DNA of 64,000 nucleotides from Labrenzia sp. 011 (GTDB taxonomy: Bacteria > Pseudomonadota > Alphaproteobacteria > Rhizobiales > Stappiaceae). Made by a program: the position numbers and the translations under genes. The DNA lies in contig NZ_QCYM01000006.1 in assembly GCF_003075075.1 (NCBI RefSeq), forward strand, positions 62,001-126,000, written 5' to 3'. Positions 26,051 to 58,404 of this stretch are shown here, one piece after another; position 1 is the stretch's first letter, and every line of letters begins with the position of its first letter. The notes beneath the pieces were generated by a model. The model searched no databases, was not told the origin of the DNA, and was given only the letters and a program-made list of their open reading frames with translations.

Positions 26051-26899
26051 TCACCTTCCGTGGCTGTCTTCCCGCTCGGTCCGGTGGGTCTTGAAAAGAG
26101 TCATGATTTCCGCGGCTGTTTCCTCGACCGAACGCCGGGTGACGTCGATCAGCGGCCATTCGTTCTCGGTGCACAGTCTGCGGGTCATGTTGATCTCCTG
26201 GGAGATTTCCTTCCGGTCCACATAGGTGTCGTTATAGCCATCCGAATTCAGCGACAAGACCCGATTGCGGCGTATTTGCTGGATGCGCTCAACGGATGCG
26301 ATCAGGCCGACGATCATCGGCCCTTTCAGCTTCTTCACGTGTTCCGGAAGGGGAATGCCTGGAACCAGCGGGACATTCGCCGCCTTGATGCCCCGATTGG
26401 CGAGATAGATACAGGTCGGGGTCTTGGAGGTTCTGGATATGCCGATGAGCACGATATCCGCGGATTCCAGATCGTCCCAGACCTGGCCGTCGTCATGCAA
26501 CATGGTGTAATTGAGCGCTTCCATACGCCGGAAATACTCGGCGTCCAGTTCGTGCTGCCCGCCAATGCGGTGGGTCTGCGTCACATTCAGATAGGACTGG
26601 AAGACGGCAAAGACCGGGTCCAGGATATTGACGAAGGGAACACCGAGTTCGCGGCATTTGAGTTCCAGCCGCTTGGCGATGTCCACGTCAACGAGCGTGT
26701 AGAGCACGATGCCCGGTGCCTTCTCGATTTCGCTGATGACCCGGTCGAGCTGTTTCTGGGAGCGAACGAGCGGATAGACATGCTCGATTTCCTGAACATT
26801 TTCATACTGCACGGTGGCCGCACGCGCCACGGTCATGAGGGTTTCGCCGGTGGAGTCGGACACCAGATGCAAATGGAAATAGTGTCTCGACTTGTTCAC
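26051..26899 (-). CDS. Pyruvate, phosphate dikinase regulatory protein (RP001 homologue)
   Basis: These proteins are bifunctional ADP-dependent kinases and phosphorylases that switch pyruvate phosphate dikinase (or PEP synthase) off and on. The 282-residue reading begins with GTG at 26899 (GGGGA 6 bases upstream), giving [20 protein letters not shown], the family start; a TTG at 26935 would add 12 residues. The P-loop G-I-S-R-T-S-K-T is near residue 150, and [11 protein letters not shown] near the C-terminus is also typical. It is the gene that bounds one side of oriC in Caulobacter and Rickettsia (RP001), and does so here. Confidence 0.95.
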
Positions 26900-26935
26900 G
26901 CTGTCATCCCCAGGGCTGTTGATGAATTGGGGCAA

Positions 26936-27326
26936 AGCCCATTCGGCCTCTGCCTAGCACGAAGTTTATGCCCGCTCAGCATGATTTATTAACAAAACCT
27001 AAACGCGGGCAAACCGATCCCGAAACGGTTCCCGGTGAATGTGGATTCACAGGAACTCTGTGACATATCGACAGATTGTCCACTAGCGCCCAATTTCCTA
27101 ACGAAAGGTTAACACCTGTTTAAGTATCTGTAATTTAACTGATAATCGTTTTATCGACTCTTGGGGAGAGATTCAGCTAAACAAGGGGCCGGATTTATCC
27201 CGGCGAGAAATTCAAGCGGACGGATTGTGGATAGAAATTGATCCCTGTAATCCACGCTCAAACAATAAAAACAGATTCAAATAAAGACTCTTTATTAGAA
27301 TCGAAAAGTGGGAAAGGCGCTGCCTC
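26936..27326. other. oriC: Predicted chromosomal replication origin (oriC) between the RP001 homologue and hemE
   Basis: This 391-base, unusually AT-rich gap has the alphaproteobacterial origin position, between the RP001 homologue and hemE. DnaA-box-like nonamers (against TTATCCACA) are at 27226-27234 minus (CTATCCACA, 8/9), 27040-27048 minus (GAATCCACA, 7/9), 27076-27084 plus (TTGTCCACT, 7/9) and 27248-27256 plus (TAATCCACG, 7/9). An AT-rich stretch at about 27091-27160 could unwind. Six GANTC sites occur at 27044, 27156, 27170, 27274, 27286 and 27298. parS sites and parAB follow 3-10 kb away. The placement is inferred from position and motifs; I could not compute GC skew. Confidence 0.8.
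27098..27123 (+). promoter_or_regulatory. Tandem CtrA-type binding motif in oriC
   Basis: CTAA (27098-27101), TTAA (27109-27112) and TTAA (27120-27123) are spaced by seven bases each, giving one perfect TTAA-N7-TTAA and an overlapping 7/8 site. A further TTAA-N7-TAAA lies at 26989-27003. CtrA binds such sites in the Caulobacter origin and blocks initiation. Confidence 0.6.
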
Positions 27327-28355
27327 ATGAAGTCTCAAGACAGAACCGTGATGAGGGTTCTCAAGGGCGAAAAGATCTGGCCACCTCCCGTCTGGATGAT
27401 GCGGCAGGCCGGACGCTATCTGCCCGAATACCGGGAACTCAGGGCCAAGGCATCGAATTTCCTGGAGTTCTGCTATTCTCCGGATCTCACCACGGAAGCC
27501 ACACTCCAGCCGATCCGCCGTTACGGTTTTGATGCAAGCATCCTGTTCTCGGACATCTTTGTCGTTCCGGACGCCATCGGATATCCGGTTCGTTTTGAAG
27601 AAGGGCGTGGTCCTGTGCTGGAACCGCTGTCTTCCAGTCTCATAGACCGGCTGGAACAGGAACGGGCCGAGGATCATCTCAAACCCGTCATCGAGACGGT
27701 TTCCCGCCTTCGGGCAGAGCTGCCTGAGGAAACGACGCTACTCGGCTTCTGCGGCGCTCCCTGGACGGTTGCTTGCTATTCGGTTGCCGGACACACCACC
27801 CCGGACCAGGTCGCCGCGCGAGTGGGCGCCTATCGCGATCCGGATCTGATGCAGCGTTTCATCGACGAACTGGTTACCGCTTCCATCCGGTATCTTGTCC
27901 GGCAGCTGGACGCGGGTGCGGACGCGGTACAGATCTTCGATACCTGGGCCGGGGTTCTGGACGATGCCGGGTTCCGGCGCTGGTCGATCGAACCGACCGG
28001 CCGAATCGTATCGGGCGTCAAGGCGGCGCGGCCGGATGCCACCATCATCGGATTTCCCAAGGCGTCCTCGGCCCGCATGAAAGCCTATATCGAGGGAACC
28101 GGTGTCGATGCGGTCGGTCTGGACTGGACGGCTCCCGACGAGCTTGCTCTGGACATCCAGAAACAGGTTCCCATCCAGGGCAATCTCGATCCCATGAGAC
28201 TGGTCGCCGGCGGACGGGCTCTGGAAGAGGGCGTGGAACACATTCTCAGAACATTCGACAAGGGTCCGCTGATTTTCAACCTCGGCCACGGTGTGACACC
28301 GGATGCGGATCCTGAAAATGTGGCGCGCATGGTCGATCTGGTGAAGAAGGGTTAA
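27327..28355 (+). CDS. hemE: Uroporphyrinogen decarboxylase
   Basis: HemE removes four acetate carboxyls from uroporphyrinogen III to make coproporphyrinogen III, for haem. The 342-residue TIM barrel opens with the signature P-P-V-W-M-M-R-Q-A-G-R-Y-L-P near residue 22, continues with F-S-D-I-F-V-V-P-D (catalytic Asp) and has F-C-G-A-P-W-T. Gene order hemE-hemJ-rho continues downstream. The ATG at 27327 follows a weak GGGAAAGG. Its promoter must lie within the predicted oriC. Confidence 0.97.
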   Translation: MKSQDRTVMRVLKGEKIWPPPVWMMRQAGRYLPEYRELRAKASNFLEFCYSPDLTTEATLQPIRRYGFDASILFSDIFVVPDAIGYPVRFEEGRGPVLEPLSSSLIDRLEQERAEDHLKPVIETVSRLRAELPEETTLLGFCGAPWTVACYSVAGHTTPDQVAARVGAYRDPDLMQRFIDELVTASIRYLVRQLDAGADAVQIFDTWAGVLDDAGFRRWSIEPTGRIVSGVKAARPDATIIGFPKASSARMKAYIEGTGVDAVGLDWTAPDELALDIQKQVPIQGNLDPMRLVAGGRALEEGVEHILRTFDKGPLIFNLGHGVTPDADPENVARMVDLVKKG

Positions 28356-50007: not shown

Positions 50008-50308
50008 TTCAGGTGATCCCGGCAGGGCTGTGAGAGGCAGGGCTGCTGCGTGACAGCGGGCCGCTTTCCTTGACTCTCCCTGTGCTTTCAGGCATAGACC
50101 CTCGAACTCCATATGAGTGAGCAACAATTCGATCCGCCGACCGGGACCCGTACAGGTCTAAAGAGTTCCCGGAGGTCACCACCCGACAGCGCGATGCGCC
50201 CTCGGGTGCGAAACTGCTTTGTGCAGTTCGATCCGGCTGGAAATGAGGGACGGCGGCCCATATGGTTCGGGAGATTTCCCGAAACCGACGATGTTCAAGG
50301 ACCCTTTG
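50008..50308 (+). promoter_or_regulatory. ffh upstream region: candidate promoter and 7-bp hairpin
   Basis: This 301-base gap holds TTGACT (50070-50075) and CATAGA (50093-50098), 17 bases apart, a candidate sigma-70 promoter with a weak -10. TTCGGGA (50266-50272) and TCCCGAA (50277-50283) make a hairpin 25 bases before the ffh ATG. I looked for a 4.5S RNA here and found no match to its conserved stem-loop. No supported gene. Confidence 0.45.
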
Positions 50309-58040: not shown

Positions 58041-58404
58041 TCGGCGCAGTCTGCGGCAGATCCCGGAGAACGGACCGATCTGCGCCCGGGCCGGGCTGGC
58101 CGCTGGAAATTCTGCGCCGGAGACTGGGGGCGTTGAATTGACGTCAAAAAATTTGCGCAACGGATATGCAAACCAATTGCTGCGCCATGCCATTTCCTGA
58201 GTCCATGAAACCGCCTGAAAGCAACATGCTGCAGTTCGCATTTCTCTCGCAGCGCGGTTGATTGCGCGCATTCGGGAGCGGATTATGGCAGTCTTGCGGA
58301 CAATTCTTGCTGAATTTAACTTTCTGTTAATAGTTTATCTAAGTTCAGCTTAAGACAAATGGTACCTTTTTGTAATAACTGTCTCTTCTTACCGTGAGGC
58401 AGAC
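58041..58404 (+). promoter_or_regulatory. Upstream region of the vWA gene
   Basis: This 364-base gap is increasingly AT-rich towards its right end and should hold the promoter of the vWA gene. It has a perfect CtrA-type box (58316-58330), listed separately, and no supported open frame. Confidence 0.5.
58316..58330 (+). promoter_or_regulatory. CtrA-type box upstream of the vWA gene
   Basis: TTAACTTTCTGTTAA is a perfect TTAA-N7-TTAA, the consensus that CtrA binds, ending 74 bases before the ATG of the Tad-type vWA gene. Such sites drive flagellar and pilus genes in Caulobacter. Confidence 0.6.

Follow-up and report, generated by a model that had tools for sequence, protein, structure and literature searches.

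Cori, the chromosome origin of Caulobacter crescentus, is bordered by hemE and a gene of the PPRP family (RP001/COG1806), and holds weak DnaA boxes, CtrA sites of the form TTAA-N7-TTAA and an AT-rich stretch (partial texts of PMC1914354 and PMC4468827). All of these features are found again in the locus described here. Structurally, Cori contains five CtrA sites, its G-boxes are overlapped by such sites or lie beside them, and an IHF site overlaps one CtrA site (PMC4285127, in part). CtrA is thought to exclude DnaA from this origin (partial texts of PMC4468827 and PMC4285127). In the available portion of PMC4468827, weakening all five CtrA sites changed replication only mildly, and the sites are described as mattering most under stress.

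The oriC of Sinorhizobium meliloti has the same gene order as our locus, and Ensifer and Sinorhizobium loci are included in our named comparison set. Unlike the gap described here, it reportedly lacks a CtrA motif and is not bound by CtrA (PMC4433202, in part). CtrA is also not reported as binding the origin of B. abortus in the accessible part of PMC2877005. In Hyphomonas neptunium, a stalked budding alphaproteobacterium outside Stappiaceae, a CtrA ChIP-seq peak adjoins the origin (PMC7200025, in part), and the obligate intracellular Rickettsia prowazekii has the same hemE/COG1806 origin boundary as here (PMC1914354, in part); both are compared by description. A 2015 review states that CtrA sites had not been seen in origins other than that of Caulobacter, with Rickettsia as a possible exception. 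Our literature search, of partial coverage, found no previous description of origin CtrA sites for Roseibium or other Hyphomicrobiales. CtrA sites are reportedly present in the origin of R. prowazekii, judging from a paper's title. Origins bearing CtrA sites are already known; what is new is the comparison, in which the site is common in the hemE-PPRP gaps of Hyphomicrobiales outside most Rhizobiaceae and Pseudovibrio.

This report addresses the hemE-PPRP gap of Labrenzia sp. 011. The window is the whole stretch of DNA that was analysed, 64,000 nucleotides (G000:C6:62001-126000) of a 5.1 Mb genome in 65 contigs. The closest named matches of its HemE are from Roseibium (88%), and the source organism is a marine Roseibium (Stappiaceae, Hyphomicrobiales). 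Among the sampled relatives, 24 of 40 belong to the same genus.

The gap between PPRP and hemE as probable chromosome origin

The gap between PPRP and hemE is very probably the Roseibium chromosome origin. This reading, which the initial annotation had also made, is supported by the gene neighbourhood, the GC skew, the DnaA-like boxes and an AT-rich stretch. Domain matches confirm the RP001 homologue and hemE as the two divergent genes that border the gap. Left of the gap, dnaQ, coaE, aroE, maf and PPRP were recognised, and right of it hemE, hemJ, rho and mnmE. The gap had been drawn at 26936-27326; its right edge holds, and its left edge depends on a TTG start of PPRP at 26935. A GTG start at 26899 is in our view likelier, and the gap is thus probably 26900-27326. 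It includes blocks conserved across 24 Roseibium gaps. The main elements of the locus are:

26051..26935, minus strand: PPRP (PF03618/DUF299, RP001/COG1806 homologue), from the ORF list and a domain match
26900..27326, no strand: very probable chromosome origin (oriC) between PPRP and hemE, from the gene pair, skew, DnaA-like nonamer excess and conserved blocks
27260..27299, no strand: AT-rich stretch containing two GANTC sites, possibly an unwinding element or the hemE promoter, from composition
27327..28355, plus strand: hemE, uroporphyrinogen decarboxylase (TIGR01464), from the ORF list and a domain match

The skew is strong evidence that the origin is at the gap or very near it. Read in 2-kb bins, the GC skew of the window mostly stays close to zero or weakly negative up to 26 kb (below zero in 10 of 13 bins), and the 19 bins beyond are all positive. 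The cumulative minimum of the contig, covering positions 1-146000 of 208,764 bp minus 2 kb, falls at window 25352, about 1.5 kb from the gap. Because the genome is split into many contigs, the congener G007 was used as well, with 36 stretches of 20 kb spread around its whole 5,300,256-bp contig. There, every stretch between 1.4 and 3.84 Mb has a negative skew and all others a positive one, giving two sign changes, one of them at hemE. The fine minimum of G007 lies at hemE-494 bp, about 70 bp past the left edge of its 425-bp gap. The skew minimum had been proposed as a check on the origin, and in both genomes it agrees with the claim.

DnaA-like nonamers were searched with TTATCCACA, allowing up to 2 mismatches, and 500 dinucleotide shuffles served as control. 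The DnaA-box-like nonamers announced for the gap are indeed there, 7 in the 391 bp as originally drawn. Within 26900-27326 there are 9 against 1.24 expected, about sevenfold, and 0 of 500 shuffles reach this number. Just one nonamer comes within a single mismatch, at 27226-27234 on the minus strand; taken by itself this is unremarkable (0.11 expected, and 52 of 500 shuffles do as well). The boxes that enter the argument are as follows:

27040..27048, minus strand: DnaA-like box GAATCCACA, reading TGTGGATTAACA in several deep-branching Roseibium
27076..27084, plus strand: DnaA-like box TTGTCCACT, with the conserved CtrA-type site 13 bp to its right
27151..27159, plus strand: DnaA-like box TTATCGACT, running into GANTC at 27156-27160, with the CtrA-type site 38 bp to its left
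27226..27234, minus strand: best DnaA box CTATCCACA, left arm of the conserved TTGTGGA...TGATCC...TAATCCAC module
27248..27256, plus strand: DnaA-like box TAATCCACG, right arm of the same module

The TTGTGGA-N-TGATCC-N-TAATCCAC module (27226-27256) is strongly conserved in Roseibium. GGAT-N11-CACA, the commonest spaced tetramer pair in our set from the order (21/59), fits this module, which may be a core DnaA arrangement of Hyphomicrobiales origins. Beside it, A+T reaches 80% at 27260-27299. GANTC occurs 6 times in 26900-27326 against 1.98 expected (reached by 6 of 500 shuffles), and each of the four gap sets examined shows roughly a twofold excess of it. This excess hints at CcrM methylation of these origins, and a CcrM-type methylase (N6_N4_Mtase and RAMA) is encoded in the genome.

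CtrA-type sites and their conservation in Stappiaceae

The motifs CTAA-N7-TTAA-N7-TTAA at 27098-27123 and TTAA-N7-TAAA at 26989, named in the initial annotation, are present as described. The sites read CTAACGAAAGGTTAA (27098-27112), TTAACACCTGTTTAA (27109-27123) and TTAACAAAACCTAAA (26989-27003):

26989..27003, no strand: second CtrA-like site, TTAA-N7-TAAA, from a motif match and partial conservation
27098..27112, no strand: conserved CtrA-type site, reading CTAA-N7-TTAA in the window, while most relatives have TTAA-N7-TTAA or TTAA-N7-TAAA, from conservation
27109..27123, no strand: perfect TTAA-N7-TTAA, overlapping the conserved site and sharing its left half-site with it, from a motif match

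Within 26900-27326, exact TTAA-N7-TTAA occurs once against 0.004 expected (reached by 2 of 500 dinucleotide shuffles), and three sites carry at most one mismatch against 0.33 expected (3 of 500 shuffles).

Conservation was followed in distinct hemE-PPRP gaps, 42 from Roseibium and 42 from other Stappiaceae. Of the latter, 26 belong to the genera g18-g21 and g23, and the other 16 to g22, which we assign to Pseudovibrio. Identical gaps were counted once, and 10 of 182 loci were dropped for want of a detectable adjacent PPRP or sufficient length. At the equivalent of 27098-27112, the Roseibium gaps contain 5 exact sites, 36 with one mismatch and 1 with two, so that 41 of 42 have at most one. The site lies 226-233 bp before hemE and reads TTAA-N7-TAAA in most of them. 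In the five sister genera, all 26 gaps carry exact TTAA-N7-TTAA, 223-236 bp before hemE. Entropy in these 26 gaps is 0.00 bits in the half-sites, 1.14 in the spacer and 1.26 in the flanks, and the corresponding averages for the 42 Roseibium gaps are 0.24, 0.82 and 1.15. A MAFFT alignment of the sister gaps places 8 of 8 half-site columns among the 37 invariant columns of 467 (hypergeometric 7e-10, assuming independent columns and species, which they are not). TTAA-N7-TTAA is also the commonest spaced tetramer pair in these gaps at spacers 4-14. When spacers from 0 to 15 are scanned, spacer 7 is present in 26 of them, spacer 14 in 11, spacer 3 in 9 and the others in none; the spacer-3 matches arise because an extra TTAA stands 7 bp before the site in 9 of the 26. 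The same scan of the 42 Roseibium gaps finds 12 with spacer 7 and 8 with spacer 6, plus a single gap for each of spacers 11 and 14. One further genome of the genus (G084, locus L191) has no PPRP that we could find beside hemE, and an exact TTAA-N7-TTAA 322 bp before hemE.

The perfect copy at 27109-27123 was considered as the main CtrA element and rejected. It is private to the source species among the 42 Roseibium gaps, and the closest relatives (L083-L085) have ATAA as the right half of its equivalent. Only 4 of 42 Roseibium gaps have an exact third half-site, located 22 bp beyond the first; allowing one mismatch raises this to 24 of 42, and 5 of the 26 gaps from the sister genera then have it too. 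The CtrA site proposed at the outset is therefore kept as the imperfect, conserved 27098-27112, and not as the perfect copy. The 26989 site is present with at most one mismatch in 32 of 42 Roseibium gaps, in 6 of 6 from g20/g21 and in 0 of 36 other Stappiaceae gaps. Exact TTAA-N6-TTAA, found in 8 of 42 Roseibium gaps, overlaps the position of this site in those gaps read in the alignment. The 26989 site is a weaker claim because its conservation is partial and because of this overlap in some Roseibium.

The term Caulobacter-like, used for this origin in the initial annotation, fits its flanking genes and its CtrA motif, and does not fit in other respects. In contrast to the five sites of Cori, the Roseibium gap has one strongly and one moderately conserved site. 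Unlike Cori, it holds no exact match to the IHF consensus WATCAANNNNTTR, with one match at 1 mismatch (27066-27078). The overlap of CtrA and DnaA sites had been put forward as the hallmark of Cori in this gap. At 27098-27112 none was found: the nearest DnaA-like boxes are neighbours of the conserved site, one 13 bp to its left and the other 38 bp to its right. Overlap does occur at the 26989 site, where the only overlapping DnaA-like nonamer (26986-26994) is a poor one with 2 mismatches.

Pseudovibrio departs from the family pattern. Exact TTAA-N7-TTAA is found in 0 of its 16 gaps, and the sole one-mismatch match lies elsewhere in the gap. The regulator itself is kept, as ctrA is present in 10 of 10 Pseudovibrio genomes searched, at 93-97% identity to Roseibium CtrA; across the 15 Stappiaceae genomes searched outside Roseibium, CtrA is 93-98% identical to that of Roseibium. 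The source genome encodes ctrA at G000:C7:129848, with 85% identity to Caulobacter CtrA. In the PPRP tree, Pseudovibrio is nested within Stappiaceae with the site-bearing g18 outside, and the fork above g18 has support of 96/78. Because Pseudovibrio nests inside site-bearing Stappiaceae, loss of the site is the simpler reading. The origin of Pseudovibrio G063 is likely at hemE. Its skew is -0.010 to +0.015 in four 20-kb stretches before hemE and +0.074 to +0.083 in four after; in this 160-kb stretch the skew minimum is not at hemE despite the sharp break in slope, and the left arm looks rearranged.

Distribution in the order and controls on the motif

Loci from other families were chosen to spread over families (60 from 155 genomes with a match, 20 from 72, and 13 more). 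These 93 loci gave 77 with an adjacent pair, 59 in Hyphomicrobiales and 18 in the class outside the order, and 16 were dropped as lacking a detectable PPRP or being too short. Exact TTAA-N7-TTAA is present in 20 of the 59 other Hyphomicrobiales gaps, and each other spacer from 0 to 15 in 0-3. With one mismatch allowed, spacer 7 is found in 34 of 59 against 5-19 for other spacers. Dinucleotide shuffles of the 59 give a mean of 0.62 gaps with an exact site and a maximum of 3, and the motif ranks tied second among 168,485 spaced tetramer pairs. Conservation throughout the class was considered and is not supported, since only 1 of 18 hemE-PPRP gaps outside Hyphomicrobiales has an exact site.

A named set of 70 distinct Hyphomicrobiales gaps, rich in Rhizobiaceae/Phyllobacteriaceae, holds 5 exact sites against 0.54 in shuffles (maximum 4), and the site is above chance there, yet mostly absent. 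The five are from Nitratireductor, Pleomorphomonas, an Ancalomicrobiaceae MAG, a Phyllobacteriaceae MAG and Agrobacterium vitis. The locus had been framed as a rhizobial one; the organism is a Roseibium of Stappiaceae, and most of the Rhizobiaceae-type gaps examined are without the site. Exact-site presence is clustered on the PPRP tree, with 21 changes against 32 for shuffled labels, and involves many gains or losses. The distance of the site from hemE varies between families. As positions differ in this way, a single ancestral site is plausible within Stappiaceae and more conjectural for the order. A record titled Bacillus subtilis strain SK6B4 (L071) contains an alphaproteobacterial-type hemE-PPRP locus with a HemE identity of 57%, and is probably mislabelled.

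A search of 385 genomes of the class found three that match Caulobacter CtrA at the strict cut-off, with 89-95% identity. Two of the three have the hemE-PPRP pair, and exact sites are present in both, two in one and one in the other. In the third, whose CtrA identity is the highest of the three, PPRP gave no match and the 0.9 kb upstream of hemE contain no site. Genome-wide, the own genome shows no excess of exact TTAA-N7-TTAA over the reversed control (39 sites each), and the control tetramer AATT is commoner than TTAA, 2.6x in the G007 stretches and 4.8x in the own stretches. In the G007 stretches, paired TTAA tetramers are most often separated by a spacer of 7 (8 cases, against 1-3 for each other spacer from 4 to 12). 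By crude gene calling, 11 of the 15 exact sites read are intergenic. Gaps of 250-700 bp seldom contain an exact site: 0 of 81 do in G007, and 2 of 18 in the stretches of the own contig, the origin being one of the two.

A possible CtrA gate on initiation and its alternatives

We consider it about two in three (0.66) that the gap is an oriC where DnaA acts on its boxes, and where phosphorylated CtrA at the TTAA-N7-TTAA-type site hinders DnaA and delays initiation. DnaA would assemble on the weak boxes to either side of 27098-27112, as well as on the module TTGTGGA/TGATCC/TAATCCAC, and would open the AT-rich stretch before hemE. Phosphorylated CtrA, as a dimer, would bind the site between the two DnaA-like boxes and hinder their joint occupation, and initiation would wait for CtrA dephosphorylation or degradation. 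The location of the origin, the excess of DnaA-like boxes, the conserved CtrA-type site, and the presence of ctrA and a CcrM-type methylase are supported. We infer the binding of CtrA at 27098-27112, the blocking of DnaA by it and the resulting timing of replication, the exclusion of DnaA by analogy with Cori (partial texts of PMC4468827 and PMC4285127). Counting against gating, the conserved site of the window has one mismatch (CTAA) and is overlapped by no DnaA box, and the PPRP-hemE gap doubles as the promoter region of both genes. As the Caulobacter sites matter most under stress, a Roseibium site mutant may look normal in steady growth.

The same origin could be bound by CtrA for another purpose, namely the control of hemE or PPRP transcription and not of initiation, which we regard as unlikely. 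The site does sit between two divergent genes, and promoter activation has been discussed for Cori too (PMC4468827, in part). Additionally, 8 of 22 loci without a detectable adjacent PPRP have an exact site at most 450 bp before hemE, about as often as paired loci, and the CtrA-type site may be tied to hemE no less than to the gene pair. This count cannot separate an origin from hemE control, so that our figure for gating was lowered from 0.68 to 0.66 and that for transcription was raised slightly. However, a position 223-236 bp before hemE would be far for an activator acting at -35, unless the leader were about 190 nt; the site is flanked by DnaA-like boxes; and the exact motif is absent from the 81 gaps of similar size in G007.

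It is quite improbable that a protein other than CtrA recognises the conserved TTAA-N7-TTAA. TTAA-rich dyads could suit another dimeric regulator, but the spacer of exactly 7 is that of the published CtrA consensus (partial texts of PMC1914354 and PMC4285127), CtrA is nearly the same protein in the 15 other Stappiaceae genomes searched (93-98%), and both genomes that have a Caulobacter-like CtrA and the hemE-PPRP gap carry the motif in it. Chance matches in AT-rich DNA seem the least credible source of these motifs, at a few per cent or so. One TTAA makes overlapping one-mismatch sites easy, and the perfect 27109-27123 is private to one species among the 42; against this stand the conservation at one place across the family around a variable spacer, the spacer specificity and the shuffles. 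For 27098-27112 this conservation argues against chance, which could still account for 27109-27123 as an independent site.

Beyond the window organism, the gating proposed here could be ancestral in Stappiaceae and perhaps in much of the order, with an origin CtrA site that is old and common in Hyphomicrobiales and was lost in Pseudovibrio and most of the Rhizobiaceae/Phyllobacteriaceae clade; we hold this to be an even bet. If true, S. meliloti, forced to an indirect route, would represent a derived exception. Roseibium and Pseudovibrio would then form a natural experiment, with a near-identical CtrA and an origin with or without the site. With a CtrA-type site conserved in Stappiaceae origins and absent from Pseudovibrio, direct gating can be tested by setting genera of this family that share the regulator against each other.

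Some minor observations were made outside the gap. An Rfam match to RF01793 (ffh sRNA) is present at window 50165-50216 (66.8 bits). Two one-mismatch CtrA-like sites (TTAACCTCTCATTCA, TTAACATCTGATTTA) lie directly upstream of the CcrM-type methylase gene (L326:529-613). Another exact TTAA-N7-TTAA, at window 58316-58330, lies in the gap preceding L146, a gene whose product has a TadE/G-like domain of Tad/Flp pili, and is a plausible further CtrA target.
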